From a virus, in the IMG/VR virus record IMGVR_UViG_3300036772_000333, positions 1 to 56,983 of that record: DNA of 56,983 nt. One strand, 5' to 3'. How positions within the stretch are numbered: the stretch's first letter is position 1; each line of letters starts with the position of its first letter. Under the pieces are notes generated by a model. The model did not search any database and was not told where the DNA came from. It saw only the letters and a list, made by a program, of their open reading frames with translations. Of this stretch, positions 9,068 through 34,597 are shown piece after piece. The translations under genes were made by a program, and so were the position numbers.

Positions 9068-9205
9068 ATGCACGATCCGAAGTGTTACGAATTAGCAGAA
9101 TACTTTTACCCCAATGAGAGCGGCGAGTTTCTTAACGAACTTGCTGAAGAAATACAGAGTCTTGTCGAATACCTCAACCCCAATAATCCGGAGAGTGAAG
9201 TATGA
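9068..9205 (+). CDS. Small acidic protein
   Basis: 45 residues, very acidic (ELAEEIQSLVEYLN), probably one helix pair. The ATG at 9068 follows directly after the TAA of the previous gene. The stop TGA overlaps an ATG at 9202. Function unknown. Confidence 0.5.
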   Translation: MHDPKCYELAEYFYPNESGEFLNELAEEIQSLVEYLNPNNPESEV

Positions 9206-9252: not shown

Positions 9253-10170
9253 ATGATTTCATCAGATAAGGCCGTCCTACTTGCCTTTCACGGTAAGCAG
9301 TCGGTAAAGGACTTCTATATCAACCGCATCAAAGAGCATCGCGCAGCCGATGAAATCGTTCGCGGCCAATACTGGGATAAAGACCATGACGGTGTTTTCA
9401 GGGGATGCGCTGTTGGCTGTACGCTTCATTCTTCAAGCCATGCAGCCTATGAAATCGAGCTGGGGATACCTCGCATCTTGGCCCGATTGGAAGATGGGAT
9501 TTTTGAGAATATGCCCCAAGAAAACGCTCCCGATTGGCCACTTCGCTTCCTTGAATCCGTTCCTGTTGGAGCCGATTTGTCATTGGTGTGGCCAAAGTTT
9601 GCAGTATGGATGCTTGGCGATCTCAATGAAGGCGTGATCCGCTTTGCTAAATCAGACAAAACACGCGAGGCAATCCAAGATATCGCGGATATGTACTTGC
9701 GGATTGTTGCAGGAGAAAAGATAGAACCTAATGCATGGCTAAAGGAAAGGCGTGCTGCTGCTGCTTATGCTGATGCTTATGCTTATGCTGATGCTTATGC
9801 TGCTGATGCTTATGCTTATGCTGATGCTTATGCTGCTGCTGCTGCTTATGCTGATGCTGCTGATGCTTATGCTGCTGCTGCTGCTTATGCTGCTTATGCT
9901 GCTGATGCTTATGTTTATGCTGCTGATGCTGCTGATGCTTATGCTGCTGCTGCTACTTATGCTGCTTATGCTGCTGATGATGCTGATGCTGCTCGTGCTG
10001 CTGCTGCTGATGCTGCTGATGATGCTGATGATGTTTATGATGTTTATGATGTTTATGCTGCTGATGCTGCTCGTGCTGCTGCTGCTGATGCTTGGCGCAA
10101 AACGCGCCTCGCACAAGCCGATAAGCTTGTCGAGATTATGGCCTCATCCCCTGTTTTGGAGACGGTATGA
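9253..10170 (+). CDS. Ala/Asp/Tyr repeat protein with conserved N-terminal domain
   Basis: 305 residues from ATG 9253, chosen for AAAGGAG eight bases before it; an in-frame ATG at 9202 (ATGA with the previous stop) would add 17 residues. Residues 1-165 form a globular domain with a RGCAVGCTLHS motif followed by HAAYEIELGIPR and WPKFAVWML, which I recall from unnamed phage proteins. Residues ~168-281 are a low-complexity tract made almost only of Ala, Asp and Tyr, with a few Val, Arg and Thr. A short Lys/Arg helix (WRKTRLAQADKLVEIM) ends the protein. The tract should be helical, with Tyr and Asp on repeating faces. Function unknown. Confidence 0.75.
   Translation: MISSDKAVLLAFHGKQSVKDFYINRIKEHRAADEIVRGQYWDKDHDGVFRGCAVGCTLHSSSHAAYEIELGIPRILARLEDGIFENMPQENAPDWPLRFLESVPVGADLSLVWPKFAVWMLGDLNEGVIRFAKSDKTREAIQDIADMYLRIVAGEKIEPNAWLKERRAAAAYADAYAYADAYAADAYAYADAYAAAAAYADAADAYAAAAAYAAYAADAYVYAADAADAYAAAATYAAYAADDADAARAAAADAADDADDVYDVYDVYAADAARAAAADAWRKTRLAQADKLVEIMASSPVLETV
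9754..10095 (+). repeat. Trinucleotide-type coding repeat GCT/TAT/GAT
   Basis: About 114 codons drawn almost only from GCT, TAT and GAT, with rare GTT, CGT and ACT. Every codon ends in T. Units such as GCTTATGCTGAT recur in imperfect order. This fits expansion by slippage or unequal recombination within an Ala/Asp/Tyr-coding tract. Confidence 0.95.
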
Positions 10171-22751: not shown

Positions 22752-25700
22752 TTACTGCAATTTGATGTTCCCACTAAACACAGTTTTGCCGCCTACAATG
22801 ATGGTTACATTGGTAGTTATAGTGTATGCCGCTGTCAAAACGGAGGAATTTGTTGAACCCGATTTCGTGGCTAAAGCCATAATGGTCAGGGAGGTGGTTA
22901 CAGGAACGGCCCCCGAATACGCTGTGCCATGCGTGCAGGTTCCGGCAGTGGTCGCCGTGGGAGTCGAGCCGTCTGTGGTATAGCAGATTGTCGCGCCACT
23001 TGTGGTTGAGGCCAGAACAACCGACTGAGCGCCGATATAGATGCCCGCAGGAGGCGTTGCTGTGGGTGTAGCGACTGTAGCACTGCCGGCAAACTGGAGC
23101 GCCCCCTGGGAGGGCGTGGAGGCCCAAGCAACACCAAGATAGTCCGTAGTCTGACCGGAGAGCGCTATTCCAGCAGAGACTGCCGGGGAGCTGCTGGAGA
23201 GGGCCATGTTGTAGTTGTCGAGAGCGGATTCTACGGAGATAGGAGTGGCGGGTTGGCTGGTGACTAGCGGGGAGATCGTAAGGTCATGCGCTCCAACGCA
23301 ATTTGAGGTTGCCGCCGTGTAGTTATAGCAGGTGTTGTAGTCCTCGAGAGAAGGACCAAGCTCGGGCCACATGTGAGGCGTAAGACCAGAGTTGTAGTTA
23401 GAATCCCCGTATCCGATGAAGACGTTATCTCTGTAGTCGGCAACATAGCCTGCCCCTAGATTGGGATTTACCTGATTCTGCGGAAACGCTGTCTGGACTT
23501 GGTTATCGAAGCTCTCAGAGTAGTTCACCAGAGTATTGTGGTAAATCTTCGCCACCGTGGTCGAGGCTGGCGTGGTTGGGACGATGACGAAGTAGGTGTT
23601 AGACGGGTTTGTAGGATAGGCCGAGCTGATCGTCCAGTGGGAGTTGTCGGTCTTTGTGGCTACGGTTCGGGCGTAGGTGTGGTAGTCGGAGGTGTCGGGG
23701 ATGAGGGTTTGGCCTACAGTGATTCCAGTAGTTCCCGAAGTTGAGGTGCAAGCGGTAGCCGTGCAACTAATATCTCTTGCGTAATCGCTGCTTGTCGAGT
23801 TGAAGACAAGGGTGGCGTTGGTATTGGAATTGACTCCATTAGCTGTTCCAGCGCGGCAATAGTCTGAAAGATTAGAGTTGAATCCAGACCCCATTCCCGT
23901 AATTGCCGCAGACATGCGATTGCATCCCGATACGATAATGTTATTGAAGACATTGACGGCCGTGTTAGGTCCGACTTTGATGTTTCCGCCGTTGTTGCCG
24001 TAGAAGAATCCATTGGTGAAGGTCTCCGTGCCGCCATGGGTGTGGCCCAAGTCTACACCATCCTGCGTGTTGTAGATGGCAAACATGTGGTCCGCAATCC
24101 AGTTGATCGGACCGGTTACGGGGGTGCCTACACCATCACCATACCCTCCGGTTGACTGTGATGTGCAAGCTCCTGAGCCGAACGGGATAGCATCCACCAC
24201 CGGGTATTCTTCGGCGCATCCGTTGAAGACAATTCCAAGGTAAGACGATGTGACGGTACCATTTGAAGCCTGACTTCCGCCCGGATCGAAGTCCCACCCA
24301 GCCTGACTATTTCCTTGGATAACGACTCTCGTAACGTTCCACTGGCCTCCGATATTGCCGAGAATCCCTCGCGACTGGAAGCCGTGAATCTTCATATCGG
24401 TGAGGTTGATGTCTGAATTGGTTGGAGTCGTAGAGTTGCCGGAGTAGATACCATAAGAGGCCCAATCGGTTCCGCTACAGGAAGGGCCGCCCGAAGCTCC
24501 GCAGGGAGAGTGATCGGAGAGGTCGATGCAGGCCATGCCGATATGCTGGGTGTCTTGGACGGAGAAGGCAAAGAAAGCTCCCGCGCCAGCCCATAGATAG
24601 GACGTATTCGCCGGGTCCGCGCCTTGATACTGATAGAGCGATGAAGTGGTGTTGAATGCCTGTTGAGTCGTATGGCATGACCCGAAGTGCTCTCCTTCAA
24701 GCATCGTGAGGTTGCTTGTACTGGTACCGGCCGGGAGTGCAGGAGGGGTGCAGGTGGTCCCGATTCCAGCGCAAGGGTTGCCGGCAGAGGAGTTCGATGA
24801 ACCGGCAATCTGGCATGGGCTGCTGGAGGTGCAGTTCTTGAAGATCACTGTATCGCCGCCGTTCATAACCCAAACGCCGGGGTTCTGGAAGTTCAGCCAG
24901 TCATCCCAGAGAGAGCGGGCATCGGCAAAGGGGCAGGATTGGTTATGCGCCCCACCTGAGTTATAGGCGGTGGTCGCGAGGCCGTTGCAGGAGGCCGCAG
25001 AAGGGGCTGCGGTACTGGTTCTTGGGCCGCCGTTCACGGGATCGACGTACCAGGTCAAGTGAATCACATACGCAGCCGTGAGCACCGAGGAATTTATATC
25101 GCCCGACAGCGTTCCGATGGCCTTGACTGTGGTCGAAGTGGAAAGAGTAAAGGGTGCGCTGTAGGTAATCGCTGGAGAGTCACAGGTTCCCGCAGTTGTG
25201 GCAGTCGGGGCTACTCCGTCGAGGCGATAGCAGATCGTGGCGCCGGAAGTCGTTGTTGCCAGCGTGATGGTCTGAATTGAGGTATACGTTCCGGCCACAG
25301 GAGAGGCAGTAGGAGTTGCTACCGTTGCCGTCGAAGGAAACTGATACGCGCCGTCATCCCAGGCCCCAGAGGAGGGAGCTACATTCCCGTCTGGATCGAC
25401 GTTATACGGTGAACCAAGATTGACCCCGATTGCATGAAGTACGGTTGAGTTCGACAGAAGATGCGCATCGCCTCCGGTTGCGTTGACGAAAGGGTTCTGC
25501 GTCGAGTTGTTGTAAGTGATGTTCCCGGTGCCGGTGGGGGCTGAGAATCCGCCGTAGGTGGTGTAGTTATAGGCATCGTGGTCGTTGGTGATGACCCCGC
25601 CCGTTCCGGCGTTCGGCAGCGAGTTCGAGACGTAGTAGAAGACGTTGTTTTGATTGATGATGTTGGTGAAGGTCGAGCCGTTGTCGGAGATAAAGGCGCA

Positions 25701-26627
25701 GTTCGAGGAGCATGGGCCGGTGTTCGATACGAAGGTGTTATTGACAATCACCACAGGGCCGTAGTTCGAGCCTGAGTTCTTGGTGGTCATCAGCGAGAAG
25801 GCCGAAGCGTAGATGTAGTTGCGATAGAAATAGTATCCCTTCATCCCGCCAAACTCAAAGAAAACACCGTCGTTCGGAGAGTTGAAGAAGGTCGTCCAGC
25901 GGACTGTGTTGTTGCCCGAAGGACCATCCGTGAAGTTGTAGATATAGTCTTCGTGGTCGATGCCATCGTTTGAGATGTCATGGAACGAAGAGTTTTGGAT
26001 GATCGTGTTCTGCCAGTTCGAGGTGCGCACCGTCTCTGACATGCTGCCGGCTTCTACGTGGTCCAAGAGTAGGCCGTCTACGATATTCGTGCTTGGGGCG
26101 ATATTGAATCCGTAAGCGCCGACAGAGCAATTACCCGCAGGAGCGCAGGCAGGGCCAGCCCCATAGACGTAGTGGAGCTCATCGCCGAGGATAGAGCGCG
26201 TGGTGGCTCCGGTGACCGTGTTCCCGCCGCCTGCTGGCGTGGTGATCGTGATGCCCCTGCTGACACGCCCGGAGACAACGTTATAGTCTCCATTGATAAC
26301 GAAGGTGGGCATATTGACCGTTGCGTCGAATGAGGAGTTCCAGCCCGGAGAGGCAACGGGTACGGAGTCCGTCGCAAGGACGCGGTTGAAGGTAAGCTTA
26401 GCGCCCGAAGTGCAGACCTTGGTCATAGGTAGGGCCGTTGTATAGGTACCCCCGGCGATCCAAATGGTGTCGCCGCAGGCTACCGTCGATACATTGATGG
26501 AGGAGAGCGTTGGCCATGCTGCACTCCATGAAGTCCCGGCCCCAGTTCCCGAAGATTGGACATACCAATTCGATCCCATCGCTGGTAGCGTGAGCAACAT
26601 CAAGAGGGGGAGGATGAGTTTCTTCAT
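22752..26627 (-). CDS. Secreted double beta-helix protein with chitobiase-type modules
   Basis: 1291 residues. Sec signal MKKLILPLLMLLTLPAMG. Residues ~20-430 and ~525-1185 read as right-handed parallel beta-helices (rungs with N, G, V, I and stacked Asn). Two copies of a ~80-residue module with a TTSGATICY core, at ~435-520 and ~1190-1275, match the chitobiase C-terminal fold. The end (TIIVGGKTVFSGNIKLQ) is a short strand cap. It is last in the minus-strand operon of large fibre-like proteins, so a receptor-binding or glycan-degrading spike is likely. A Sec signal on such a protein is unusual. Confidence 0.65.
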   Translation of the reverse strand: MKKLILPLLMLLTLPAMGSNWYVQSSGTGAGTSWSAAWPTLSSINVSTVACGDTIWIAGGTYTTALPMTKVCTSGAKLTFNRVLATDSVPVASPGWNSSFDATVNMPTFVINGDYNVVSGRVSRGITITTPAGGGNTVTGATTRSILGDELHYVYGAGPACAPAGNCSVGAYGFNIAPSTNIVDGLLLDHVEAGSMSETVRTSNWQNTIIQNSSFHDISNDGIDHEDYIYNFTDGPSGNNTVRWTTFFNSPNDGVFFEFGGMKGYYFYRNYIYASAFSLMTTKNSGSNYGPVVIVNNTFVSNTGPCSSNCAFISDNGSTFTNIINQNNVFYYVSNSLPNAGTGGVITNDHDAYNYTTYGGFSAPTGTGNITYNNSTQNPFVNATGGDAHLLSNSTVLHAIGVNLGSPYNVDPDGNVAPSSGAWDDGAYQFPSTATVATPTASPVAGTYTSIQTITLATTTSGATICYRLDGVAPTATTAGTCDSPAITYSAPFTLSTSTTVKAIGTLSGDINSSVLTAAYVIHLTWYVDPVNGGPRTSTAAPSAASCNGLATTAYNSGGAHNQSCPFADARSLWDDWLNFQNPGVWVMNGGDTVIFKNCTSSSPCQIAGSSNSSAGNPCAGIGTTCTPPALPAGTSTSNLTMLEGEHFGSCHTTQQAFNTTSSLYQYQGADPANTSYLWAGAGAFFAFSVQDTQHIGMACIDLSDHSPCGASGGPSCSGTDWASYGIYSGNSTTPTNSDINLTDMKIHGFQSRGILGNIGGQWNVTRVVIQGNSQAGWDFDPGGSQASNGTVTSSYLGIVFNGCAEEYPVVDAIPFGSGACTSQSTGGYGDGVGTPVTGPINWIADHMFAIYNTQDGVDLGHTHGGTETFTNGFFYGNNGGNIKVGPNTAVNVFNNIIVSGCNRMSAAITGMGSGFNSNLSDYCRAGTANGVNSNTNATLVFNSTSSDYARDISCTATACTSTSGTTGITVGQTLIPDTSDYHTYARTVATKTDNSHWTISSAYPTNPSNTYFVIVPTTPASTTVAKIYHNTLVNYSESFDNQVQTAFPQNQVNPNLGAGYVADYRDNVFIGYGDSNYNSGLTPHMWPELGPSLEDYNTCYNYTAATSNCVGAHDLTISPLVTSQPATPISVESALDNYNMALSSSSPAVSAGIALSGQTTDYLGVAWASTPSQGALQFAGSATVATPTATPPAGIYIGAQSVVLASTTSGATICYTTDGSTPTATTAGTCTHGTAYSGAVPVTTSLTIMALATKSGSTNSSVLTAAYTITTNVTIIVGGKTVFSGNIKLQ

Positions 26628-29291: not shown

Positions 29292-32200
29292 TCACTTATC
29301 ATTGACCCATGCCCCCGCAACACAAACATAAAAAGTGCTTCCTGTGGTCCCGGCTGTATTGCTGAAGAGCGACCCATTAGCACAGGAGCCGGTTGGCGCT
29401 GAAGCTCCTGTAGTCCAGAAGACTGTAGCCGTGGGGCCGATCTTCGAAGCATAGAGCTGAGCTAGGCCATCTCCAGAGGTAGACCCGTCCGCGCTGATAA
29501 TTCCATCGGTATGCTGGCTGAACCCGGAGGTGAGCAAAGGAATAGAATTTACCGCGAAGGTATCGTTTTGCGTAAACCTGAACCCTCTGCCTGCACCATT
29601 GACGATATCCGCTCCCGCTATCCATGGCCCTGCAACCGAGAACGGACTTACGCCGGTAAGCGGAGAAGTTCTGGTCCCGATATCGTCTACATGGGATGCA
29701 TTGCTCGCGCATGGCCCTAAGTCATAGCTTTGATTTCCTACGAACGTCCAGATTTCGCCCGTTATGCCGGTAGGCAAAAGCGAGCATGAGACTCGGTTGA
29801 GGTTTGTGCCGCTCAGGGTCGCGTTGCCATTACGGATATCTGTAGTCTTTGTCCATGTAGAGCCATCGGGGAAATTAGCCTGTAGCTGGTAGATATACTC
29901 CGAAGTGCCCGGAGTTCCGATAACCGTAACCTGCGGTGTTCCAACACCTAGATAGTTGTCATATCCCAGAGTTCCCGTAGGCTGTCCGGGGCTGATATCA
30001 CGTATTGCATAGGTCTGGACGTTAGTAAACCCTCCCAGGAAAGAGCTAGCGGTAAATATCTCTTCCGGCACAGAGATTGGAATGTGAAAGTCGTTCTCAA
30101 CTGTATTCAGCGATATAAGAGAGTTATTTCCGTTGACCCAATCGTATTGAACAGAGACGTTGTTCCACTTCAACCCGAAGTTTCCTGACGCCAGAGAGAA
30201 TATGAAAAAGTTCTGTAGTCCCGGCTGAGGAGAACTTCCTGATATATTTCCGATGCAAAGCGCACATCCATTGTGAACCGGAGCGGAGTCCATAACAAAG
30301 CCGCCCGAATAAGGTTCATTGCCGGCTAGCTCCACGCCAACAGGGGGATTCATCACGCCTCCAGCCCCGATGACATGGAACTGATCGAACATGTTATTGA
30401 AGACCTTCAGCGCTACCGAGCTTGAGGCAGAGTAATTGCTAAGGTTGATCTCAAGAGCCTCCTGAGCTTCGGCTCCCGGTGTAATCAATTCCATCGACAT
30501 ACGGTTCTCAATAGCTTTGAGAGAGGAGTTAGGACCCGCGTAGAAGTTATCTCCTGCCTGAAATAGCGGAGATAGGTACGAAGTCGCCATGTGCCCTGAG
30601 TTAAGAATTCCTACCGGCTGAACTCCGGGAGTTTGGTCTGCTGTGTTGTAGATTTCTACGGCAGGGAACAGGGATGCCGCCAGGTAGTTGAAAGGAAGAC
30701 GTACAGATGTGGTTCCATCGGCGCAACTTGTGTCAGCCCCGGATTGGACGAGGGAATAAACGCCATCGGTTGAAGAGGTAAAAGGATGTGGCTGCTCTCC
30801 GTTGACGGTAGCGTCAGGACATCCAATGATTCGGATATGGTTTTGCAGGATAATTCTGTCCGCCTGTGGGCCAGCATTGGTATTAATTTGCAGTGTAAGA
30901 ACGCCACCAACTCGCTGTACATTATTGGCAAGATAGGTTCCACCCGCATTGCCTTCTCCAGGAACGCCGGTAAAGGATGCTTCTGTGAAAGCCTGGCTAC
31001 CGTTCTGCGGTCCGCCACGCCATTGCTGGCCAGCCGCATAAACTGCCACGCCAACTGAGTTGTCGCTACCGGATACCAGCACCGGCTCCAGGCTTCCCAG
31101 CGCTAACCCTTGAACCGTAGTCGAGTCTGCGTTCAAACTGATCGCGGTACCGCAAGCCCCGCCCTGAGCCGCAATTGTGGCCGTTCCTGATGCGGGAACG
31201 GTGCGATTGAGGAGTGCGGTAACTACCTGATTACCGCTTCCGTCAGGCGCGGTGATTGCAGTTACTTGAACGCCGAAGGCCATCTGATTGCCGCTAGTGG
31301 CCCCAAGACATAAACGCCCTACTCCATCGGGGGCCGATCCTCCCGATACCGTGAATGGGGAGGTGTTGGAATGCACTGTAAAGCTAACCGAGGTTACAGT
31401 CCCATCCTGCGTAGGAACGTCTGCGGTAGTCACAAGATAACCAATGGCATAGCTAACAGGAATCGCCTCTGTGGCGGTCCCTCCTGAAGATGTGGCCGAT
31501 CCAGCCAGAGCATAGGTCAAAGTCGTTCCGGTTGAGGCCAGAATCGTAAACGTTCCGTTGAATACGGAGTTTGAAACCCCGGCGATATTCACCTGACCGC
31601 CAGGAGTTGGATTCTGAAAGGTCAATCCAGGAGGCGGTGTGAATGTTGCTACAGCCGTTCCGCCTGAACTGGTGATGCTGGTGATGGGGAGAGTAGGAAA
31701 GTCAAAGACGATTGTCGGAATGTAGGGAGATGGGCTATGCGAATCGCCGCCATCGAAACTATGCGCCATCAACTGCAAATCTACAATAGGCTTGCTGACA
31801 TCGATGCCGATCTGTCCAATACCGGCGATTCCTCCACTTTGCGTGGACGGAGCTATTAGATGATAGGAGTCCGTAACCGAAGTGATCGGGCCGAGAAGAG
31901 CAATGGGGCTTCTGAAATGATGCCCTTCGTCATAGCAGCCTTCATCTGAAAAGACCAGCCATCCGCCATTGCAGTAGGTGTAATAGTAGTGTCGGATCTG
32001 ATCCCCGATACCCAACATAAAGGTTTGGGTTGTCGATCCTTTAATTCCTTCACTGACGAAGTAGTTCGTGATGTCTTGAAACTGCGCCAAGGACCATCCA
32101 AAGGAACTGGTATGGGTTGTGGCTGTACCGCCCGATGAAGACGTATTCGCGCCAGAGTTACTATAGGAGATAGAGTTTCCAGAGATCGCCGTGACTGGAG

Positions 32201-33596
32201 AATTAGCAGTATTGAAGCTGGAGTCGGTTACGCCCGCGACTACAATCGGCAATCCTACTTGAGCGAGCAATGGTGTCGCGGTTGTGACGGTAGCCACATT
32301 GCCGGTTCGAGAAACAGCAGTGAGGGCAACCTGTCCTCCCGTCGTCTCTGTCGTCCCGAAATTATGACTACCTGCGGCCCAGATATTGAACTGATAATCG
32401 GGCACCTGTTCGCCTCCCTGGAGAGGACCAGGATTGGGAAAAAGGAAGGCGCTTCCATGCGGATGTGTTGTCTGGAATTGATAGCCAGTGAACGACGACG
32501 GCATGACATTGGTTGCGAACTGCCCATCAGAATTAGCGCGCTTATCGGCGAGAAAAGATGAGACGTTATTCGCTGTCATGGGAAGCATGTTGCCCTGTTC
32601 GGTGTCTCCCGATGTTGGCGGAGTCTCTAGGGTGCACATCGTCAGACTGCAGTTTGCCTGCGCGTTGGCAATACCATTATTGCCACCACCAGAGATGAAT
32701 AGGTCGGTGTTTGATATGCCCTGAAGGATGCCCGTCTGGCAGTTTGTGGTGAGCGCACACGGAAATCCCCCGCCGGAGGTGCTGCTGTTGTAGGTCGCGA
32801 CGACTCCCCAATTTCCGTTCAATGGGCCGTTCAGCGTGACGGATTCGTAATCGTTATTGAGGACATAGCTGCTCTGTCCGGAAATCGTTATTCCCATCGC
32901 GCTTGGGAGGATCGTTACGGTGTGCCCGTCGGCCAGTCCTCTTTGTATCGAGTAGTACCCCTGCACCGTGGGAGGCAGCGTGATGGTGATGTTTTGATTG
33001 TTCGCTTGCGTACTCACGCTGATAAAACTGTTTGCGTTTGTTCTGCCGTCGTTGATGACGAGATCGCTGGTCACAGGCGGGCCGGGAGACAAGAATAGGG
33101 TTCCCGTCAAAACGAGGACCGGTGCTATAAATCCAACCTGTGTCCCTCCAACGACTCCGAATGTGGTCCCGGTAGGCTGGTTGATGATCTGATCCGAGGT
33201 CGGGTTCAGAAGGACATCCCCACCACCACCGCCACCTCCACCGCCGATACAGATGTTCGGGATCGTCGTCGGCGTCATACCCTGCCCCGACATGACAACG
33301 TCGTAGCACACGTTCCCCGACGCGAAGAAGCCGAATAGCGCCGTCTTGGTATCCCCTGTGAATGGGTTTGTGAGCGCCCCTCCTCCGGCCGTCGAGAAGA
33401 TCGTCGATAGCGTTACCGTACCGGTGTTGTATACGGTCACCGTACAGCCGGGAACTGCGCTCTCCTGGTAGTTGGTTGAGGCGAGGCCAGAGACCAGAGC
33501 TTTCGTCGCGCCCTGGGTGCATAGGCCGTTATACCGGAAGTTCTGAGCAAACGCCGGAGCTGTGAGCGCCAGCAAAAGAAAGATGAGGCGCTTCAT
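29292..33596 (-). CDS. Large secreted spike/fibre protein
   Basis: 1434 residues from ATG 33596 (GGAG seven bases before; ATGA overlap with the previous stop). Signal MKRLIFLLLALTAPAFAQ. The N-terminal ~110 residues look like a separate beta domain. A run of nine Gly near residue 120 then leads to long beta-structured sequence, with helix-type rungs and several Ser/Thr/Gly repeats. The end (STFYVCVAGAWVNDK) resembles a C-terminal fibre cap. Probably the main receptor-binding spike. No catalytic motif is certain. Confidence 0.65.
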   Translation of the reverse strand: MKRLIFLLLALTAPAFAQNFRYNGLCTQGATKALVSGLASTNYQESAVPGCTVTVYNTGTVTLSTIFSTAGGGALTNPFTGDTKTALFGFFASGNVCYDVVMSGQGMTPTTIPNICIGGGGGGGGGDVLLNPTSDQIINQPTGTTFGVVGGTQVGFIAPVLVLTGTLFLSPGPPVTSDLVINDGRTNANSFISVSTQANNQNITITLPPTVQGYYSIQRGLADGHTVTILPSAMGITISGQSSYVLNNDYESVTLNGPLNGNWGVVATYNSSTSGGGFPCALTTNCQTGILQGISNTDLFISGGGNNGIANAQANCSLTMCTLETPPTSGDTEQGNMLPMTANNVSSFLADKRANSDGQFATNVMPSSFTGYQFQTTHPHGSAFLFPNPGPLQGGEQVPDYQFNIWAAGSHNFGTTETTGGQVALTAVSRTGNVATVTTATPLLAQVGLPIVVAGVTDSSFNTANSPVTAISGNSISYSNSGANTSSSGGTATTHTSSFGWSLAQFQDITNYFVSEGIKGSTTQTFMLGIGDQIRHYYYTYCNGGWLVFSDEGCYDEGHHFRSPIALLGPITSVTDSYHLIAPSTQSGGIAGIGQIGIDVSKPIVDLQLMAHSFDGGDSHSPSPYIPTIVFDFPTLPITSITSSGGTAVATFTPPPGLTFQNPTPGGQVNIAGVSNSVFNGTFTILASTGTTLTYALAGSATSSGGTATEAIPVSYAIGYLVTTADVPTQDGTVTSVSFTVHSNTSPFTVSGGSAPDGVGRLCLGATSGNQMAFGVQVTAITAPDGSGNQVVTALLNRTVPASGTATIAAQGGACGTAISLNADSTTVQGLALGSLEPVLVSGSDNSVGVAVYAAGQQWRGGPQNGSQAFTEASFTGVPGEGNAGGTYLANNVQRVGGVLTLQINTNAGPQADRIILQNHIRIIGCPDATVNGEQPHPFTSSTDGVYSLVQSGADTSCADGTTSVRLPFNYLAASLFPAVEIYNTADQTPGVQPVGILNSGHMATSYLSPLFQAGDNFYAGPNSSLKAIENRMSMELITPGAEAQEALEINLSNYSASSSVALKVFNNMFDQFHVIGAGGVMNPPVGVELAGNEPYSGGFVMDSAPVHNGCALCIGNISGSSPQPGLQNFFIFSLASGNFGLKWNNVSVQYDWVNGNNSLISLNTVENDFHIPISVPEEIFTASSFLGGFTNVQTYAIRDISPGQPTGTLGYDNYLGVGTPQVTVIGTPGTSEYIYQLQANFPDGSTWTKTTDIRNGNATLSGTNLNRVSCSLLPTGITGEIWTFVGNQSYDLGPCASNASHVDDIGTRTSPLTGVSPFSVAGPWIAGADIVNGAGRGFRFTQNDTFAVNSIPLLTSGFSQHTDGIISADGSTSGDGLAQLYASKIGPTATVFWTTGASAPTGSCANGSLFSNTAGTTGSTFYVCVAGAWVNDK

Positions 33597-34597
33597 CGCC
33601 ATGCTCCGATCCCACCCATATTCGCGCGCCCAATCTGGCTATTAAAATACGGCATTCTGCATCCACCCATGTAACTGTTCATGCTGAGGTTATACGAGTC
33701 AACCTGATCCTTATCGATCAACCGCAATGTCTTGAGTCGGGATAGGAACTCCGCTTCTCCCTCTTTCTTCAGTGCGCTGTAGTTGGCACCGGAACCCTTG
33801 GCAGCCATCACGTCCTTGCGCGATTCAGCCCACTCGTAGGCGTAGACGCGCGCCTTGGTGAGAACTACGTCCTGCGTGATCGGATACGGCAGCGTGTCGG
33901 AGTTATTGACCAGGACCGGAGCATCCGCTACATAGTACGTCTGGTAGCTGATCTGCGTTGACGGGTTCGGGTACAACTCATAGAGCATCTGGCCAAAGGT
34001 CGATGATCCGGCACGCATGTCGGTCCCGAGCGGCAGGAGGCTATCGGGATTCGACGTATAAAGCCGAGCCGGGTCCCACTGATTCACATCGCGCCTCGAA
34101 GTCCATATATCCATCGCCCAGCAGTTGAACATGTCAGCCACGTTGAGCCACCTCTTGAACCTGGGAGGAGCCGCGATGTACGCCTGAAACATCTGGTACT
34201 CATTGCCCGCAAGAAACGGCAGCGGATCGACGAAGTTACGGTCTAATGTCAGGATGACAGCCGTAGGGTCCGTCGCGTCCATCGCCACAATGGAGTAAAT
34301 CGAGTAGCCGGTGATACGGATTTGTTGGAGCGTCGTCTGCCAGTACAGGGGCAGTGCCAGCCATGCTGCAGAAGCCACCGCGTCTCCCACGAGAGTGTTC
34401 TGTCCCAGCCCGGTGACCGTAACGCTGCCGGCCGTGGTAATATTCGGTGTCGAGAATCCGCCTTGTCCAAGCTGAAAGGACCAGAGGTTGGAATCCTGCA
34501 CGACGCGCCAAGCCCGGTTGATCAGTGTACCAGCGTAGATTCTACTTAAACCGGGTATAGCCTCAGAAAGTTCTGCTTTCATGTCTAGGTAGGACAT
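33593..34597 (-). CDS. Head-tail connector or neck protein candidate
   Basis: 334 residues from ATG 34597, which has a G-rich AGGGGGG site before it. The N-terminal ~35 residues are a short helical domain (MKAELSEAIPGLSRIYAG, then LINRAWRVVQDSNLW). The middle is beta-rich and the C-terminal ~100 residues are helical and charged (YALKKEGEAEFLSRLKTL-like). It stands between the capsid genes and the spike genes, where podovirus adaptor or tail-tube A proteins occur. Family not recognised with certainty. Confidence 0.5.
   Translation of the reverse strand: MSYLDMKAELSEAIPGLSRIYAGTLINRAWRVVQDSNLWSFQLGQGGFSTPNITTAGSVTVTGLGQNTLVGDAVASAAWLALPLYWQTTLQQIRITGYSIYSIVAMDATDPTAVILTLDRNFVDPLPFLAGNEYQMFQAYIAAPPRFKRWLNVADMFNCWAMDIWTSRRDVNQWDPARLYTSNPDSLLPLGTDMRAGSSTFGQMLYELYPNPSTQISYQTYYVADAPVLVNNSDTLPYPITQDVVLTKARVYAYEWAESRKDVMAAKGSGANYSALKKEGEAEFLSRLKTLRLIDKDQVDSYNLSMNSYMGGCRMPYFNSQIGRANMGGIGAWR

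Follow-up and report, generated by a model that had tools for sequence, protein, structure and literature searches.

A phage protein family with an alanine-rich arm whose codons tend to share one third base

An alanine-rich arm, in which codons tend to end in one and the same letter, separates a conserved N-terminal domain (N-domain) from a C-terminal cap in a family of phage proteins. The member studied here is encoded in a 57-kb stretch of viral DNA (56,983 nucleotides, analysed whole and referred to as the window), where the original prediction, made from the sequence, had singled it out as a repeat protein built from three codons. Beyond that prediction, the third-base lock spans different residues and the whole family, its letter varies from phage to phage, and the arm is common to other N-domain families. 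The product is probably an accessory phage protein, modelled with a small N-domain of helices joined to a cap helix by a long, amphipathic arm based on alanine. We hold with good confidence that the protein is divided into N-domain, arm and cap, and that the arm evolves as a young array subject to duplication and deletion. We infer only tentatively that the arm serves as a binding surface, with its likeliest use a conflict against a factor from the host or from a rival phage. The complete explanation, an amphipathic helical arm produced as arrays are rapidly born, duplicated and deleted, shaped by selection and serving as a fast-evolving interaction surface, has in our judgement an even chance of being right.

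The gene and its parts

The window is a single virus contig with matches to terminase, portal and major head proteins; a helicase and a Sak4-like annealing protein are also encoded, and no tRNA genes were found in it. The gene and its features are as follows.

9253..10170, + strand: whole gene, an open frame of 305 amino acids plus stop (ATG at 9253, stop codon at 10168-10170)
9253..9750, + strand: conserved N-domain, codons 1-166, ordinary codon usage
9406..9441, + strand: C52-x3-C56-x2-H59-x3-H63 cluster, from conservation among 65 members
9751..10092, + strand: locked alanine-rich arm, 114 codons, every one ending in T
9769..9837, + strand: exact in-frame 36-bp duplication within the arm (copies 9769-9804 and 9802-9837)
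9982..10014, + strand: first copy of an exact in-frame 33-bp duplication, from sequence comparison within the arm
10060..10092, + strand: second copy of the same 33-bp duplication, from the same comparison
10030..10056, + strand: GATGTTTAT three times in tandem (Asp-Val-Tyr), read from the sequence
10093..10167, + strand: C-terminal cap helix, ordinary codon usage, family-wide, pLDDT 85-98

Starting instead from an in-frame ATG at 9202 would lengthen the protein by 17 residues. Elsewhere in the window, two very large proteins (1291 and 1436 amino acids; 22752-26627 and 29292-33602, minus strand) have no PHROG match.

Codons 167-280 form an unbroken run of 114 NNT codons, 106 of which specify Ala, Asp or Tyr (GCT 66, GAT 21, TAT 19, GTT 4, CGT 3, ACT 1), which confirms the pattern noticed on a first reading of the stretch. 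NNT codons make up 28% of the 166 codons 5′ of the arm, and across 15 long open reading frames elsewhere in the window, GCT serves for 19% of Ala, TAT for 41% of Tyr and GAT for 44% of Asp. With these 15 frames as background, the probability that all 106 Ala, Tyr and Asp codons would end in T is ~10^-62, so the all-T arm is not a product of chance. Tandem Repeats Finder detected arrays in the window only at the location of the arm, and the exact in-frame duplications internal to it measure 33-36 bp. The triplication of GATGTTTAT is a recent local expansion.

Relatives and family layout

No Pfam family matched the whole protein at E-values up to 1, and the best match of the isolated N-domain (SelR, E 0.21) lay below the cutoff. 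Neither NCBIfam nor PADLOC returned a usable match for the protein, a PDB sequence search gave no relative, and a DNA-level search of cultured phages with the region gave no match. PHROG 3416 (function unknown) matched weakly (E 5.5e-5), mainly within the arm (N-domain alone, E 0.016), and was matched by 48 of 62 family members (best 1.4e-10). A profile search of IMG/VR with the N-domain revealed 373 related viral stretches. Scanning bacterial genomes with the single sequence returned nothing and scanning them with a profile returned 12 loci; the bacterial-MAG loci are labelled Bacteroidetes, Anaerolineales, Gemmatimonadetes, Pirellulaceae, Proteobacteria and others. After removal of duplicates, the working set consisted of 156 members from IMG/VR, cultured Xanthomonas phages and bacterial MAGs.

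The family layout is a conserved N-domain carrying C-x3-C-x2-H-x3-H, an alanine-rich tract and a C-terminal cap. The N-domain had been called conserved-looking, and relatives in more than 370 viral stretches bear this out; C52 and C56 are present in 65 of 65 members, H63 in 64 and H59 in 58, and the cluster is a possible metal site. The cap helix closes nearly all complete members, with K291, L292 and L295 as conserved columns and a consensus of about R..Q-A-D-K-L-L-E-L-L. The element earlier described as a basic cap is better called a conserved C-terminal helix than simply basic. Exceptions such as L024, L097, L123 and L232 appear truncated or frame-shifted. L232, L123 and L065 are shifted in frame, or end in or before the tract, with L232 entering a shifted-frame Pro/Thr reading; these are possibly natural frameshift alleles or assembly errors.

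Tract length differs between phages and ranges from about 9 to 198 residues across the family, in line with the length variation proposed at the outset. The suggested check for N-domains without a tract yielded two near-tractless members, L142 (9 residues) and L018 (17 residues), and one with a tract that is not alanine-based. In the latter (L004:5001-5627), the N-domain is kept and the arm is replaced by a tract whose NGG-NNT-NTT rhythm recurs every three codons and whose residues are highly diverse; read in another frame, this DNA gives a hydrophobic Gly-Leu-Phe repeat.

A hypothetical protein of the cultured Xanthomonas phages KPhi1, phiXaf18, BsXeu269p/3 and XapPhi1-6 has a homologous N-domain (26-33% identity; tblastn E 1e-8 to 1e-10; C-x3-C motif aligned) and an Ala-rich tract ahead of a C-terminal cap. 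It differs in that the arm is built from Ser-Ala-Ala-(Trp/Arg/Glu/Gln) in mostly G-ending codons, and the cap looks unrelated. The gene lies directly 3′ of one annotated as virulence-associated E in KPhi1, phiXaf18 and BsXeu269p/3; a comparison of neighbouring genes across the family found none conserved.

The lock across the family

Median entropies over 140 tracts were 0.87, 1.05 and 0.14 bits for the first, second and third codon positions, compared to about 1.9 bits for each of the three in the N-domains. One third base is common to at least 95% of codons in 85 of the 140 tracts and to all codons in 64. The shared base is T, C, G or A depending on the phage, with Ala codons ending mostly in T or C. 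The third base of Asp codons matches that of the Ala codons in the same tract in 82 of 85 tracts, and the third base of Tyr codons does so in 80 of 83, where 55-57% would be expected. Third-position GC content of the N-domain (GC3) is 0.36 for T-locked and 0.59 for C-locked members, with broadly overlapping ranges and one C-lock at a GC3 of 0.23.

The lock also persists between diverged relatives: the N-domains of L106, L107, L109, L111 and L113 differ at 11-22% of third positions, and their tracts remain 94-100% T. L109 and L113 are two gene copies within one contig (IMGVR_UViG_3300045921_000803) and carry different T-locked arms. In L064, L067, L019 and L047, synonymous codons are mixed with a strict period (2, 3 or 4 codons) and amino acid changes follow no period.

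Residue choice and predicted structure

The residues of the arm vary with the shared letter. T- or C-locked tracts contain 709 Tyr, 652 Asp, 49 Trp and 28 Glu residues, and G- or A-locked tracts contain 104 Trp, 157 Glu, 8 Tyr and 27 Asp; residue identity thus tracks the third base, and the aromatic and acidic chemistry is kept. Non-Ala residues are enriched at spacings of 3, 4, 7, 8 and 11 and depleted at 1, 2 and 5, in z-scores that array duplication inflates and of which only the direction counts; this pattern fits a placement on one face of a helix. AlphaFold predicted a confident N-domain and cap in the window protein, joined by an arm that is helical at low confidence. The spacing and this model agree with the helical tract that had been anticipated. 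For the short-tract member L018, the N-domain and cap pack into one confident model (pTM 0.86). Fold searches with this N-domain and cap model gave a best Foldseek E-value of 0.69 and a best VIA Z of 4.2; no clear PDB fold match was returned for the predicted structures, and the sole match in a viral structure library was an unnamed phage protein.

The main rival to an interaction role casts the arm as inert, a spacer or length ruler that separates N-domain and cap, with slippage setting its length and its residues needing only solubility and helicity. The wide range of lengths and the free reshuffling of residue order are what a spacer would allow, and the conserved parts are exactly the N-domain and cap that pack together in the short-arm model. 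Against it, 78 of the 82 locked T/C tracts contain Asp, and 78 contain Tyr; Val, which is reached from Ala by a single transition and hence more easily than Asp or Tyr, is present in only 30. The retention of aromatic and acidic chemistry where the third base forces other residues, and the spacing along one helix face, also argue against inertness. We regard the spacer as improbable, although a serious competitor.

Turnover of the arm and the origin of the lock

In the explanation that we favour, an Ala codon (or a unit of 2-4 codons) would expand via in-frame duplication and deletion, Asp and Tyr (or Trp, Glu or Arg) codons would arise within the array through changes at positions 1 and 2, and selection would keep charged and aromatic side chains spaced as on a helix. 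With the array often reborn and reshuffled, synonymous differences would be erased and one third base would be left.

Pairs of closely related alleles document such turnover in relatives of the window phage. L336 and L337 are set apart by an in-frame duplication of 45 bp plus two substitutions, including an Asp-to-Tyr change in the tract, and L319 and L352 differ by a clean 78-bp in-frame deletion; both pairs carry N-domains other than that of the window family. The N-terminal parts of L072 and L073 are identical at 491 of 492 nucleotides, and their tracts comprise 86 and 56 codons that differ in order and end in C throughout. The regions upstream of this last pair are only 78% identical, and thus the gene lies on a mosaic segment. 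Together with the locked codons and the exact internal duplications, the clean in-frame indels uphold the original suggestion of recent expansion. Among the Xanthomonas isolates, tract changes are mostly synonymous and give no indication of rapid adaptation. Third-base changes account for all four tract substitutions between XapPhi3 and XapPhi5 and for three of the four that separate KPhi1 from BsXeu269p/3. The Rhodopila relatives L095 and L098, from MAGs, have the same N-domain and cap and an Ala-rich tract with mixed codons; these unlocked tracts can be aligned with one single-residue gap and, on this evidence, seem to be a slow-evolving form of the arm.

Singletons in locked tracts number 26, 21 and 11 at codon positions 1, 2 and 3 (11 of 58 single-step changes at the third base), in tracts pre-selected as locked and therefore biased against position 3. 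Since these singletons and the Xanthomonas isolates show third-base changes, mutation does reach this position, and the simple notion that it never does was dropped. For the same reason, rapid turnover is the natural explanation of third-base purity. Toy simulations in which slippage was combined with selection merely retaining Asp and Tyr produced no shared third base, and homology-dependent slippage gave no lock in the first model rows. Young arrays grown from one Ala codon came closer, yet stayed below the observed concordance. These simulations were crude, with one lineage, a simple fitness function and arbitrary rates. Turnover with stabilising selection was dropped as a full account of the lock, which the toy simulations fail to reproduce. 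One option is that arrays are reborn very often, with at least 15 T/C switches among 86 members; the other is that some further factor keeps the third base in place.

The second option, in which the third base itself is held by DNA- or RNA-level selection or by a mutational process confined to positions 1 and 2, is in our view unlikely. The concordance across residues is nearly complete, simple turnover models do not yield it, and the tracts of L072 and L073 differ only by indels and at positions 1 and 2. However, third-base changes do occur, in the singletons and in both Xanthomonas comparisons; the N-domain tree (86 members) shows no fewer than 15 switches of the letter between T and C, the Rhodopila tracts are unlocked, and no candidate enzyme was identified. 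We consider still less likely a codon-register-aware diversification that would alter positions 1 and 2 with the third base fixed, act on arms attached to unrelated N-domains and be distinct from retroelement-based diversification.

The same arm on other N-domains

A scan for the T-locked Ala/Asp/Tyr DNA pattern returned at least 120 stretches. Among the matches listed, 92 proteins with an N-terminal part of at least 50 amino acids formed four real blast clusters: one of 65 containing Imm5_like proteins, the window family with 16, a ‘CIEAA/CSIAA’ group with 8 and a ‘GHGLHVS’ group with 3; one unrelated repeat protein was also present. The cluster of 65 may merge more than one family, as linkage is transitive, and part of it was assigned by Pfam to Imm5_like (PF21805). 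In all four clusters among the matches listed, 93-95% of tract codons outside the search pattern end in T. The locked arm is therefore a module attached, in environmental phages, to at least three further N-domain families, one of them Imm5_like. At locus L362, two adjacent RGDW-type genes each have their own T-locked arm.

The phage Imm5_like proteins resemble the window protein in having an N-domain, a locked Ala/Tyr/Asp arm (about 95% T outside the search pattern in their cluster) and a short cap, but their N-domain is of the form ACxxA...RGDWxLW. Alignment of the two N-domains gave an hhalign probability of 1.4%, and membership of the window protein in PF21805 was rejected on these unrelated profiles and the lack of a Pfam match. 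An immunity protein of the Imm5_like kind, directed against a toxin or rival element with the arm facing the toxin, is suggested by analogy, since arm, layout and lock all recur in phage proteins matching that family. The unrelated N-domain, the merely putative status of Imm5_like as an immunity family and a non-exhaustive look at the neighbours, in which no adjoining toxin gene was identified, make this reading unlikely for the window protein.

Assembly across the tract

A contig end is reached by 31 of 154 family members, and thus assembled tract lengths may be imperfect; two of the six XapPhi records (L366, XapPhi1, and L369, XapPhi2) end inside the tract. Ends at or inside the tract suggest that it breaks assemblies, and it marks a site where phage assemblies tend to do so. 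That the repeat was collapsed or invented by assemblers, which struggle there, is nonetheless scarcely credible: almost every complete member has an open frame that ends with a conserved cap, the gene is identical in XapPhi3 and XapPhi4 and differs by one tract base between KPhi1 and phiXaf18, isolates from different countries, and the pattern is seen again in well over a hundred contigs. Assembly collapse, which had been named as one way to refute the arm, does not explain it, as cultured phage genomes carry intact arms.

Comparison with other repeat systems

The arms allow protein-level selection and DNA-level repeat turnover to be told apart: the needed residue class is aromatic and acidic, and the third base is merely an inherited letter. 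Should the arms prove to bind factors of the host or of rivals, every phage would have a newly rewritten binding surface. The aim would then be similar to that of known phage diversification systems, and the phage arms would need repeat instability only. Literature searches, with most subscription papers outside their coverage, returned no account of such locked arms.

The tandem repeats of Borg elements are likewise in-frame, fast-evolving and recently formed in proteins of mobile elements, but their DNA is A-rich and they are mostly predicted to be disordered (PMC9879509), whereas the phage arms have a high Ala content, a helical character and a locked third base. Amino acid repeats formed by trinucleotide slippage are codon-homogeneous runs of a single amino acid (PMC1557989). 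The phage arms share with them strong codon homogeneity (a single third base in 64 of 140 tracts) and expansion and contraction, seen as in-frame length variation in close alleles of relatives. They differ in combining several amino acids under a common third base, in an aperiodic order with helical spacing.
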